Shown one piece after another: positions 34,601-37,342 of a stretch of DNA of 64,000 bases (position 1 is its first letter; every line of letters starts with the position of its first letter). The position numbers and the translations under genes were made by a program. This stretch comes from Pseudomonadota bacterium (lineage in GTDB: Bacteria; Pseudomonadota; Gammaproteobacteria; Acidiferrobacterales; Acidiferrobacteraceae): assembly GCA_021785035.1 (NCBI GenBank), contig JAJYGP010000025.1, positions 62,001 through 126,000 on the forward strand, in the 5' to 3' direction. The notes under the pieces were generated by a model. The model searched no databases, was not told the DNA's origin, and was given only the letters and a program-made list of their open reading frames with translations.

Positions 34601-34999
34601 CTAGACAGACGGGGTTGTGTCGCGTCCCCCATGGACGCGTTCAAGACGGGTTTGGCAGGGCGTGCAGCGCTCGGCCGTAGGGTAGGCATCGAGCCGCGCG
34701 TACGGGATAGCACAACCGCACTCTGAGCAATATCCGTAAGTTTGTTCTTTAAAGCGCCTAAAGCCGCGTTCTATGGCTCGCGCCTCCCAAAGTTCGCTTT
34801 CCATCTCCGCTAAGTTGAGGTCGGCAAGCTGCAAGGCCATCGATTCATCGCCAGAGTCGCCCACTTCGCCGCCCATTCCTTGCATGCTGTCCCGGTTTGC
34901 GCCGGCAGTTACCGCTCTAATCATCCGCTGAAGCTCGGTGTGCCGTACCCTAAGTCTTTCCCAAAGAGTAGCGCGCTGCTCTTCTGTCATATCTCCCAT
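34601..34999 (-). CDS. DksA/TraR family zinc-finger protein
   Basis: This 132-aa protein has an N-terminal helical region and a C-terminal C4 zinc finger, CSECGCAIPYARLDAYPTAERCTPC, typical of DksA/TraR proteins that bind the RNA polymerase secondary channel. The acidic coiled-coil tip reads GDSGDESMALQLADLNLAEME, not the canonical DxxDxA of DksA, so it is a paralogue rather than housekeeping DksA. The start at 34999 has GGAG about 8 bases upstream; an ATG at 34990 is an alternative. Confidence 0.87.
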   Translation of the reverse strand: MGDMTEEQRATLWERLRVRHTELQRMIRAVTAGANRDSMQGMGGEVGDSGDESMALQLADLNLAEMESELWEARAIERGFRRFKEQTYGYCSECGCAIPYARLDAYPTAERCTPCQTRLERVHGGRDTTPSV

Positions 35000-35682
35000 T
35001 ATAAGTCTCCGCTATCGAATGACCTTAAAAGTCTCTTGGCTTATCACAGAATGTGATTTTCAACCCTTGTCTTCGTGGTACAGGCGAAGACAGCGGCCCT
35101 TGTTTCTTCGCCCATGTTGGCAAAAAACGTCGCTCATTGCTCCGGACTCCGGTCCCTAGCGCGCCTTAACGAACCGGGTGCCTCGGCCTTGCCGTTCCGC
35201 CGGAAAACAGCGAGTCCGACTTTGAATTAGGCGTTTAGAGGCGGCCGCGACACGCAAAAAAAGCCGGCAGCAGCAGGTCAAGAGGCCCAATCCCCGGAAG
35301 GCGCACCCCTCATCGTAAAATTCGGTCTTTGAACGCGACCGCAAGCGCGATTCGACCGCAATAAAGGGTCCGGTGGGTCGCAAGTCTCAAGCTTGGCTTG
35401 GGCGCGCACAAACAAAACCGCGCGCGCACCGGCTTAAGCTGATGTCAAAGCGCCCTGAATCGAAAAACTTGGCCCACTTTCGGCGTTAAGTCGGTCGACG
35501 GCATAAGGATGTGTCGCGTCGACGCCGACACAAGCCGCATAAGATGGTGTATTTGCGATTTCGCTATCGTAAAAGCCATTTTCGGTACGGTGAGGACACC
35601 GAGGTTGGGGTGATGGAGCGCGTCCTTGGCATGGTTCGGATGTTTTGTACAGAGATTTATGCAAAGAAGTGACATGAATTGT
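35000..35682. other. Long intergenic region, no gene recognised
   Basis: About 680 bases separate the DksA-like gene from the leader of the histone-like gene. An inverted repeat GTCGGTCGACG / CGTCGACGCCGAC lies at 35490-35529 with a 16-base loop. A 43-codon frame from ATG 35543 (MVYLRFRYRKSHFRYGEDTE) shows no family I know. No tRNA, terminator or mobile-element ends were found. Confidence 0.5.
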
Positions 35683-35710
35683 TTGCAAATGTAGATATCG
35701 CTGTTACAGT
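35683..35710 (+). promoter_or_regulatory. Weak candidate promoter for the histone-like gene
   Basis: TTGCAA (35683-35688) and TACAGT (35705-35710) are separated by 16 bases, each matching the sigma70 consensus at 4 of 6 positions. Transcription would start near 35717, immediately before a perfect hairpin at 35720-35757. The match is modest. Confidence 0.3.
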
Positions 35711-35719
35711 TAGGCTGAC

Positions 35720-35757
35720 AGCGATGCGATCTCGTAAGTTTGTATCAACGCATCGCT
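35720..35757 (+). promoter_or_regulatory. Leader hairpin upstream of the histone-like gene
   Basis: AGCGATGCG at 35720-35728 pairs perfectly with CGCATCGCT at 35749-35757 across a 20-base loop. It would sit at the 5' end of the transcript and ends 3 bases before a strong AGGAGGAGGAG ribosome-binding site. A second hairpin, AGAGTTG/CAACTCT, is at 35883-35904, just before the start region of the histone-like gene. Confidence 0.55.
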
Positions 35758-35772
35758 AGTAGGAGGAGGAGA

Positions 35773-35838
35773 GTGAGGGTTTTCGGGATGGCCCGAACCA
35801 AAGAGTGTGATCGGGTGACAAGCTCGGTCATGGAATAG
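35773..35838 (+). CDS. Candidate 21-residue leader peptide
   Basis: A GTG start 6 bases after AGGAGG (35761-35766) opens a short frame, VRVFGMARTKECDRVTSSVME, ending in TAG at 35838. The ribosome-binding site is among the strongest in the window, and the ORF lies inside the leader between two hairpins, 91 bases before the histone-like gene. Translation is a guess based on the site; no family comparison supports it. Confidence 0.3.
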   Translation: MRVFGMARTKECDRVTSSVME

Positions 35839-35929
35839 CCGGAAGTGGCTCCTTGCCTCGACGCCCTGACTCAGGGAGGCGGAGAGTTGGCGGGGTGCAA
35901 CTCTTAAACATGATTGAAGGAGTGAGTGT

Positions 35930-36184
35930 ATGGCAATAAAGAAGAAGACATCCGCATCTAAGAAGGCGGCGCGTAAGTCGGCGCCTGCCAAGGCGGCGAC
36001 CAAGAAGGCCGGACCCAAGAGGGCGGTAGTGAAGAAAAAGACGCAAGCCAAGAAGGCCGCGGTCAAGAAGGCGCCAGCGAAAAAGGCTGTTCCCAAATCG
36101 CGCGTCAAGGCGGCCGTGAAGAAGGGTGTGTCGAAGGCCAAATCCACCGCGACTAAAAAGAAGTCGCGCGCAAAAAAGAAGTAA
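35930..36184 (+). CDS. Histone H1-like Lys/Ala-rich DNA-binding protein
   Basis: This 84-aa protein is made almost wholly of Lys, Ala, Ser, Thr, Pro and Val: 31 lysines, with repeats such as KKAAVKKAPAKKA. It resembles the basic tails of bacterial histone-H1-like proteins (Hc1, AlgP, BpH1) and probably binds DNA or RNA without a folded core. The ATG follows GAAGGAG by 8 bases. The gene has its own structured leader and its own terminator. The adenylate kinase in this window carries a very similar tail. Confidence 0.88.
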   Translation: MAIKKKTSASKKAARKSAPAKAATKKAGPKRAVVKKKTQAKKAAVKKAPAKKAVPKSRVKAAVKKGVSKAKSTATKKKSRAKKK

Positions 36185-36196
36185 GCCGCAAAGACC

Positions 36197-36235
36197 ATAA
36201 GGGTTCGCGCCTTTATGGCGCGAACCCTTATTTTT
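36197..36235 (+). terminator. Rho-independent terminator after the histone-like gene
   Basis: ATAAGGGTTCGCGCC pairs with GGCGCGAACCCTTAT around the loop TTTAT, followed by TTTT. It begins 13 bases after the stop codon and, being nearly symmetrical, may also end the minus-strand transcript of the next gene. Confidence 0.9.
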
Positions 36236-36242
36236 CCCCGTT

Positions 36243-36689
36243 TTATTCCCCTGCCTCTTCGCTGTCGCTGAGCGCGTCTTTATTGATGGACTGAAGGGCC
36301 TCGGCCCATAGGTTTTCCAGCCCTTGCAGGTCGGTCATCACGATCGTATGAAGGGCGATCAGTCTCCCGGTCAGGGCATCGAGATCGGCCCCGCCCGTCA
36401 GATCTTGGGCCGTGCGTTCGGTAAGTAAGAGTGTATCGCGCATGCTGAGGCAGGATCCAAGCAGGTTTTTCAATCGCTCTCGCTTGTGCGGAATCCAGTC
36501 ACGGTCCGCGCCGAGCGATTTCAGGCGTTCGCCGAGATCGAGGATGCGCTTGCGCAGTTTGCTTGTGGCGCCGAGCTTATCGCTCTTTATATCCCCCCAA
36601 ACCGCAATCTCTATCAAAGCCAGCCAATGTCCCTTCAGCTGAGCGAGCAATTCCGGATCTGGCCCTATCGGGGTTGTCGACTGGTTCAT
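36243..36689 (-). CDS. Hypothetical helical protein downstream of murU
   Basis: This 148-aa protein has no domain I recognise. It is predicted helical and charged: a central block from LRKRILDLGERLKSLG to KNLLGSCLSMRDTLLL is followed by an acidic C-terminus (DALSDSEEAGE). There is no signal peptide or membrane segment. Its ATG overlaps the murU stop (ATGA), so it belongs to the amgK-murU operon and is the last gene before a terminator. A role in cell-wall recycling is only a guess from position. Confidence 0.75.
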   Translation of the reverse strand: MNQSTTPIGPDPELLAQLKGHWLALIEIAVWGDIKSDKLGATSKLRKRILDLGERLKSLGADRDWIPHKRERLKNLLGSCLSMRDTLLLTERTAQDLTGGADLDALTGRLIALHTIVMTDLQGLENLWAEALQSINKDALSDSEEAGE

Positions 36690-37342
36690 AACATTCCTTC
36701 GTTGAGGGCTCGGAGGCGTTCCGGGGTGCCGACATCGGTCCAAAGCCCCCGATAGTGCTCCCCCGCCACCAAGCCTTGGGCCATGGCTTTGCGCAGAAGC
36801 GGTGCGAGCGGAAAGCGTTCTTCCGAGCTCGATCTAAAGAGCGTCGCTCGGTAAACGCCGACTCCAGCGAAGGTGAGACGCGGGGCGCGATCAATGACCT
36901 GCCCGTTCTCCAGCCCAAAATCGCCAGCGTCATGATGTTCCGGGTTATCGACCAACACCAGGTGCGCTAGCCCCGGGGGGGCGTTAGGGAGCTGGGCGAA
37001 AGGGTAGTCGGTATAAATGTCGCCGTTGACGACCACGAAGGTGTCGCTTGTCAATAATGGCAGCGCTCGGCGTATGCCTCCTCCGGTTTCAAGTCCCGTC
37101 GGCCCCTCGTCGGAGTAGCGAATACGGGCGCCCAAGGCGTGCCCGGACCCGAGGTAAGACTGCAATTTGTGCCCCAGGTGGGCGACATTGATAACAATCT
37201 CGTCAAAACCGGCCGCCACAAGTTGGGTGACTAGGCGCTCGATAAGTGGCACGCCGCGTACACTTAACAGCGGTTTTGGGATGGTGTCGGTCAGAGGCCG
37301 CATGCGTTCGCCGCGGCCGGCCGCAAGTATCATGGCGATCAT
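36686..37342 (-). CDS. murU: N-acetylmuramate alpha-1-phosphate uridylyltransferase MurU
   Basis: This 218-aa nucleotidyltransferase carries the sugar-nucleotide signature LAAGRGERMRPLTDTIPKPLL at the N-terminus and VVNGDIYTDYPF around the metal-binding aspartate. In Pseudomonas, MurU makes UDP-MurNAc from MurNAc 1-phosphate in the recycling route that bypasses MurA and thus fosfomycin. The call over other NTP transferases rests on its overlap with amgK and on the lptD-surA neighbourhood, where murU normally lies. Confidence 0.92.
   Translation of the reverse strand: MIAMILAAGRGERMRPLTDTIPKPLLSVRGVPLIERLVTQLVAAGFDEIVINVAHLGHKLQSYLGSGHALGARIRYSDEGPTGLETGGGIRRALPLLTSDTFVVVNGDIYTDYPFAQLPNAPPGLAHLVLVDNPEHHDAGDFGLENGQVIDRAPRLTFAGVGVYRATLFRSSSEERFPLAPLLRKAMAQGLVAGEHYRGLWTDVGTPERLRALNEGML

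Follow-up and report, generated by a model that had tools for sequence, protein, structure and literature searches.

A conserved 5′ leader before a lysine-rich H1-like gene in Acidiferrobacteraceae and its possible relation to putative ribosome-coupled leaders across the order

INTRODUCTION

How is the gene of a small lysine-rich, histone H1-like protein controlled when a long structured leader precedes it? To our knowledge, little is known about how bacteria set the amounts of H1-like proteins. We investigated such a gene in the window, by which we mean the whole stretch of 64 000 nt of DNA that was analyzed. The family of its genome is placed in the Acidiferrobacterales, Gammaproteobacteria (NCBI taxonomy), the order being assigned via named records of the window's family. 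An earlier note, made from the sequence alone, had described two hairpins and a 21-codon ORF with a strong ribosome-binding site upstream of the gene and had suggested translational or attenuation-type control. No description of this leader was found in the open-access literature searched. In the following, G000 is the window's own genome, G001 its close sister, g1 the window's genus and g2 the sister genus.

RESULTS

The leader and its gene

The features of the locus are listed in Table 1. For the 84-aa protein no Pfam match was found at an E-value of 1, and the comparison with the NCBIfam model hist_H1_lk_Burk (NF038053) gave an E-value of 0.26 and 11.5 bits, which is below the cut-off of 80. 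Its likeness to histone H1 is one of composition only. Passages of a paper on AlgP describe H1-like proteins as lysine/alanine-rich and similar to the H1 tail, with a 154-aa C-terminal repeat domain in AlgP (PMC9239181); the window protein shares this composition and differs in having no Pfam family. The term 'UTR' is absent from the main text of that paper, and the portion of it covered here contained no leader of this type.

Table 1. Features of the leader and the H1-like gene in the window (SD, Shine–Dalgarno)
Feature	Position	Strand	Remarks
Conserved promoter block	35677..35712	+	candidate -35 TTGCAA (35683-35688), 16-nt spacer, extended -10 TG-T-TACAGT (35705-35710)
5′-terminal hairpin	35720..35757	+	arms 35720-35728/35749-35757, 9 bp in G000
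Remnant of the conserved leader frame	35724..35759	+	ATG CGA TCT CGT AAG ... TAG = MRSRKFVSTHR; overlaps the 5′ hairpin
Purine run AGGAGGAGGAG	35761..35771	+	in G000 and G001 only, 17 leaders compared
21-codon GTG ORF	35773..35838	+	one Lys; in G000 and G001 only, of 17 leaders
Middle hairpin	35806..35832	+	arms 35806-35814 and 35824-35832
Anti-SD strip	35848..35857	+	GCTCCTT plus GCC; complements the SD
Purine strip GGGAGGCGGAG	35874..35884	+	invariant across 17/17 family leaders
SD-proximal hairpin GAGAGTTG/CAACTCTT	35882..35905	+	96.1% of cells paired, changes one-sided only
SD AAGGAG of the histone-like gene	35917..35922	+	sequence
Lysine-rich H1-like protein, 84 aa	35930..36184	+	ORF; single copy in own genome
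Likely terminator of the monocistronic H1-like gene	36197..36235	+	15-bp perfect stem, then TTTT; own reading

The hairpin at 36197–36235 is symmetrical and is located between the convergent H1-like gene and orf166, for both of which it is likely a shared terminator. The orf166 product (36243–36743, minus strand) has no Pfam or NCBIfam match at an E-value of 1, and the gene adjoins murU in the family as well as in G015, G030 and G034. On the other side, the divergent dksA-like gene is separated from the promoter block by about 680 nt (35000–35676) with no assigned feature.

The perfect 9-bp inverted repeat of the 5′ hairpin was located where the earlier note had placed it, and a perfect repeat of at least 9 bp occurred in 6 of 300 dinucleotide shuffles of 35683–35929. 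The second hairpin described in the note, AGAGTTG/CAACTCT at 35883–35904 ahead of the histone-like start, was confirmed. The whole leader folds with a z-score of −1.61 (14 of 200 shuffles were equally good), the first 52 nt of the transcript with −1.56 and the SD-proximal block of the window with −0.51. By itself the leader folds modestly beyond chance, and the hairpins alone are weak evidence. A strict terminator scan of 34950–36300, which also passes over the 36197 hairpin, called no terminator-like site in the G000 leader, and a consensus promoter scan did not call the conserved promoter block. Rfam E-value scans of 34900–36300 and of 11 loci each gave three matches, all far below gathering in the former and all below gathering in the latter; a gathering-score scan of four loci gave no match.

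Conservation within the family

Searching 60 relatives for the leader DNA, we found it in 17 genomes: all 14 of the own genus (G000 included), 3 of 4 others of the family and none of 42 outside. Each of the 17 family leaders is followed by a lysine-rich H1-like ORF of 83–99 aa at a distance of 238–254 nt from the promoter block. Scanning named genomes with an exact pattern yielded 14 stretches, two of them from one genome, with Acidiferrobacter sp. and Acidiferrobacteraceae bacterium among them. As far as the named family stretches reach, they have homologues of the dksA-like gene, ugd, bioB, orf166, murU, amgK and lptD as common neighbours. This strong conservation at one syntenic place supports the view of the earlier note that a regulatory leader precedes the histone-like gene.

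Identities to G000 were calculated for 13 of the 16 relatives (G005, G009 and G013 are without the long locus), using up to four flanking genes for third codon positions. These third positions were 40–51% identical in 12 relatives and 87% in G001. The 36-bp promoter block was 92–100% identical between G000 and the 13 relatives, and with up to 3 mismatches allowed the G000 genome contains it once. Identity to G000 was 38–59% over the 5′ half of the leader (G001, 96%); over the ~85 nt that directly precede the gene it was 85–89% within the genus (G001, 100%) and 69–72% in the sister genus. A second promoter and leader start was observed in G007 at the end of contig C20 (L018/L027), beside the same left-hand neighbours; it is possibly a strain duplicate, the contamination of the bin being given as 5%.

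For pairing we used an alignment (A4) of 12 of the 14 genus leaders, leaving out G008 (divergent) and G011 (leader the same as in G007). Four pairs of the 5′ hairpin (35720–35723/35754–35757) are kept in 97.9% of the cells, and 97.2% of the cells are paired over the 9 pairs of the middle hairpin; in each hairpin two pairs are changed on both sides. Taken jointly, the two have 97.4% of cells paired and four pairs changed on both sides; shuffles reached the covariation score in 1 of 500 cases and the number of double-changed pairs in 36 of 500, statistics that ignore relatedness. The three sister-genus leaders have lost one of the four 5′-stem pairs, and across the 17 leaders the energy of the 5′ hairpin is unremarkable (mean z −0.57). 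Two further candidates were rejected: a long-range GATCTCG/CGAGATC pairing in the 5′ half, which is 98.6% paired but nearly invariant and hence uninformative, and a helix of columns 60–67/81–88, which is 84% paired with mixed support. Conservation is stronger evidence than folding, and it does not extend to the 21-codon ORF and its ribosome site, which were found in 2 of the 17 leaders.

The SD-proximal block

Close to the gene, GCTCCTT (35848–35854; CUCCUU) is complementary to AAGGAGT (35917–35923), with GGGAGGCGGAG and the SD-proximal hairpin in between. Within this block 96.4% of the cells pair and none of the changes is compensatory; column shuffles give equal pair counts and are therefore uninformative as a control here. 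The anti-SD:SD pairing itself holds in 93.8% of the cells across 16 distinct leaders, without compensatory change, and its two outer pairs are lost in G014, G016 and G017. The stability of the block did not exceed that of shuffled sequence (17 leaders, mean z +0.14). The anti-SD:SD pair exceeded a probability of 0.5 in 8 of 17 local folds and in 4 of 17 full-leader folds, with values of 0.42 and 0.39 in the window. We also considered and rejected stable sequestration of the SD, which is weak in the window: the cost of opening the SD is not above that of 15 control genes (genes of the window with rule-chosen starts). Because folding does not favour it strongly, we treat the block as a conserved sequence whose structure is uncertain.

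Conserved sequence without extra folding stability would suit a protein site. In the window's genus, CsrA/RsmA or the lysine-rich protein could bind GGGAGGCGGAG and AAGGAG and thereby block ribosomes, which would make the leader a protein-controlled translational switch. The strip GGGAGGCGGAG does not vary in any of the 17 family leaders, and the genome encodes CsrA. Three GGA triplets occur in the conserved block; however, such triplets belong to any SD-like strip. We regard a switch of this kind as unlikely.

Leaders beyond the family

At an E-value of 0.1 or better, model R1 matched 28 of 57 genomes of the order: the 17 family genomes, G015, the full set of five from genus g7 (family f5) and five more. 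The match was weak in G015, which represents a third genus of the window's family. Among the weak matches in the order, those in G015 and the five g7 genomes were pursued directly. G015 and the five g7 loci each carry a lysine-rich ORF (49 aa and 26 aa, respectively), and G015 and two of the g7 loci adjoin orf166 and murU. The G015 leader contains a 53-codon TTG frame with its stop at −24 and without an R-L-R start. In one g7 genome (G034, L059, 395–1075) the upstream ORF is a co-oriented 226-aa ORF and not the dksA-like gene. Class-wide R1 matches outside the genus (six genomes) were rejected: in L061 and L062 the match is the lysine-rich beginning of a 143-aa ORF that we read as HU-like, in L060 it is a lysine-rich stretch within an ORF, and in L063–L065 it is something else. 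The pattern TTTGCAA-N10-CGCT-N2-3-TANAGT-N5-TTGACG, derived from the promoter block and shared by G015 and the g7 loci, was present in 21 of the 57 order genomes, and its reversed control in none. With fixed spacing, the promoter pattern matched the same six G015/g7 genomes plus one control at 3 mismatches, and none of 369 class genomes at 2 mismatches.

A search for murU in 34 further genomes matched 33, and 30 loci were read; a lysine-rich ORF passed the filter in 11 of these 30, with a common leader. From 14 leaders we built model R2, which covers the last ~130 nt of the order leader including the first 12 coding bases. R2 matched 35 of the 57 order genomes, namely 34 of 39 non-family genomes (14 of which are the sources of the model) and, weakly, G015; it gave no match in the 17 family leaders of g1 and g2. 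The murU search also covered 29 of the R2-matched genomes, and in 27 of these the gene lies within 2 kb. The same model gave three matches in 369 class genomes, two of them in members of the order and the third a weak one where no lysine-rich ORF was found.

We examined 37 of the 38 listed R2 places, leaving out the partial match in G015. All 37 precede a lysine-rich ORF of 14–101 aa with a K fraction of 0.30–0.67. At 25 of them we saw a promoter of the TTGACA type with TGnTA[GC]A, and in these cases the leader is ~400 nt long. At L131 (G048), L137 (G032), L139 (G023) and other f7 loci the lysine-rich ORFs behind the leader are only 14–21 aa long (e.g. MAKKKAKKAAKKKK), a size easily overlooked by gene callers.

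Terminator-like hairpins and the leader ORF

The order-wide leader ORF contains two hairpins, the terminator-like T1 and a second one, T2. For T1 (GACAGCC/GGCTGTC and variants) we observed a 7-bp core in 30 of 37 places, with loops of 3, 4 or 5 nt; the core was chosen by a rule demanding at least 6 pairs, the count was anchored by hand, and the 7 places without a core were left out of the following exchanges. Among the 30 core places, A-U (24) is exchanged for G-C (4), C-G (19) for U-A (10) and C-G (27) for G-C (2). A run of at least 4 T lies near T1 in 32 of 37 places. The stem sequence of T2 is variable. In one relative (L084) the terminator scan called both hairpins terminator-like. In alignment A5, which held 14 of the 16 leaders then available (G024 and G038 were left out), the pair counts of T1 and T2 did not exceed column shuffles; no counts were drawn from the model alignment A6, in which 12 partial matches lay on the reverse strand. 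For T1 we found no conspicuous antiterminator partner (5.67 versus 5.22), and terminator-like hairpins were not found in the leaders of the window's family. In three f6 genomes (G022, G027 and G031; L149, L150 and L151) a second T1-T2-SD copy, without an R-L-R leader start, precedes a different lysine-rich protein of 67–75 aa; the element may be portable.

The start motif [AT]TGGATCGATTGCGA (at most 4 substitutions) was found in 34 of the 37 leaders, 214–306 nt before the gene, and is absent in the three second copies. Read as a start codon it is TTG in 25, ATG in 8 and CTG in 1 of them, and the frame that begins there with M-x-R-L-R comprises 61–95 codons, G032 running on. Codon 3 is CGA in 34 of 34 and codon 5 encodes Arg in 33 of 34 (CGA, CGG, AGA, CGT). 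In many leaders a purine run lies ~13–15 nt before the start. Up to −45 the frame is without a stop in 34 of 34 primary leaders, compared to 12 and 3 for the other frames and 3.8 expected from shuffling, where the frame had been spotted before it was tested and the genomes are related, so that the counts are not independent. The stop is located between −45 and −17 in 29 of 34; it lies at −5 in G018, at −12 in G050 and at +5 in G047 and G044. Past its start the leader peptide has little or no third-position bias, and by our own reading the frame that passes through T1 differs between families; therefore the act of translation, and not the peptide, seems to be selected.

In the window's family the corresponding frame, TTG-ACG-N-N-CGA, is open as far as the vicinity of the gene in 14 of 17 leaders (other frames 6 and 4; 3.4 expected) and ends at −28 to +7. 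It is interrupted in G000, G001 and G008. A start codon shared by the family is lacking: 7 of the 14 open leaders have an in-frame ATG and G013 has a GTG, and the rest offer only a TTG at the putative transcript start.

A conserved promoter, a long conserved leader and tandem hairpins with T-runs ahead of the ORF would also be expected of a separate small RNA of ~300 nt, which would end at T1/T2 in most of the order and leave the lysine-rich ORF as a read-through product. However, the leader frame continues without a stop across the two hairpins until shortly before the SD, every one of the 37 places, including the three f6 second copies, precedes a lysine-rich ORF, and no terminator-like hairpins were found in the window's leader. 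A small RNA is thus improbable in our judgement.

We are slightly more sceptical still of an ordinary long 5′ UTR, in which the promoter is under strong constraint, the SD is preceded by purines, and hairpins and open frames occur without regulation. Opening energies of the SD that resemble those of control genes, a 3′ block without excess stability and the lack of an Rfam match at gathering score are all consistent with it. On the other hand, the 3′ block is 85–89% identical within the genus versus 40–51% at third codon positions, T1 covaries, and an uninterrupted leader frame was seen in 34 of 34 leaders; all three argue against it.

The AGGAGGAGGAG site and the 21-codon ORF of the earlier note are present in G000 (such a run occurred in 1 of 300 dinucleotide shuffles), and the single Lys codon was seen as described. 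Classical attenuation by lysine supply through this peptide is very improbable, although strong SD and ORF exist, since the ORF is confined to 2 of the 17 family leaders, contains a single Lys codon and lies in a leader in which no terminator-like site was called; the run of regulatory codons in a conserved peptide that characterizes his/thr-type leader peptides was likewise not found.

DISCUSSION

Our best explanation, for which we judge the chances to be about even, is that a single lysine-rich H1-like gene has this region as its 5′ leader, that the leader belongs to a set syntenic across most genomes of the order, and that it is under ribosome-coupled control. In most of the order the leader consists of a promoter, a leader ORF that starts with M-x-R-L-R and runs through T1 and T2, and a stop just before the SD of the lysine-rich gene. 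With ribosomes close behind RNA polymerase on the leader ORF the hairpins could not form, so that the gene would be transcribed and re-initiated upon, and with lagging leader translation T1/T2 would end the transcript. In Acidiferrobacter and the sister genus no terminators were found at the places of the hairpins, and the conserved block with the anti-SD strip lies there instead. As the family frame (14 of 17) still stops near the SD, the same signal would there affect translation. With its broken leader frame, the window's own lineage retains only the promoter and the SD-proximal block. Conservation, synteny, the open leader frame and T1 covariation are observations; termination at T1/T2, coupling and the signal are inferences. 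Several results speak against the explanation: in the window, the interrupted frame and the lack of a called terminator; in the family, the lack of a shared start codon, an SD that is no costlier to open than in control genes, an SD-proximal block without extra stability or compensatory change, and the lack of R2 matches in g1 and g2; and in the order-wide leaders, the A5 pair counts, the rule by which the T1 core was picked, the small third-position bias, the missing antiterminator partner and the distance of the purine run from the leader start.

The other families of the order probably show the ancestor-like form of the leader. From its position, gene, neighbours and promoter pattern and from the motifs CGGAAGT and CTCT-TAAC, matched by eye, we infer that the SD block of the family descends from the T1/T2 region. 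We read the window's leader as a ribosome-coupled leader that has been remodelled or is decaying. The attenuation-type control suggested earlier can be recognized as a layout in relatives of the same order; it would not proceed via the ORF then named, and the window has an interrupted frame and no called terminator.

Known systems offer partial parallels. Passages of two papers on pyrBI (pyrL) of Escherichia coli describe a 135-bp leader gene that contains an intrinsic terminator, at which a close ribosome suppresses termination (PMC4824070, PMC5021804). The order-wide leader has the same layout, with an ORF that is open through the putative terminator and mostly stops between that hairpin and the gene start. 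It differs in having two hairpins within 61–95 codons, before the gene of a lysine-rich mini-protein, and in having no known nucleotide-sensing pause site; in the window the leader frame is broken and no terminator was called, so that an ORF open through a terminator as in pyrBI was not found. For mdtU-mdtJI of E. coli, passages of PMC7815308 describe that translation of the upstream ORF affects whether transcription reaches the gene, involving Rho and a conserved C-terminal peptide, with the stop 106 nt upstream; here we observed hairpins with T-runs and a peptide that is not conserved past its start. In Chlamydia, the small RNA IhtA controls translation of hctA, which encodes a histone-like protein (PMC4355289, PMC3469542, in part). 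This system shares the histone-like gene and translation control at the RNA level, and differs in that IhtA acts in trans.

More tentatively, and with distinctly greater doubt, we propose that an undescribed ribosome-coupled attenuator controls lysine-rich micro-histones of 14–101 aa across the order. It would read the rate of translation via the leader ORF, whose peptide would be irrelevant past the R-L-R start with its invariant CGA, and it would make the output of a nucleic-acid-condensing peptide depend on the capacity for translation. In Acidiferrobacter, termination would have given way to translational coupling, which would be decaying in the window's lineage.

The analysis flags a set of lysine-rich ORFs of 14–30 aa that gene callers could easily miss. 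Furthermore, the change of one leader from a terminator type to an SD-proximal type may be visible here inside a single order. An order-wide leader whose ORF stays open across hairpins ahead of lysine-rich mini-proteins would link translation directly, and in a testable way, to a chromatin-like protein.
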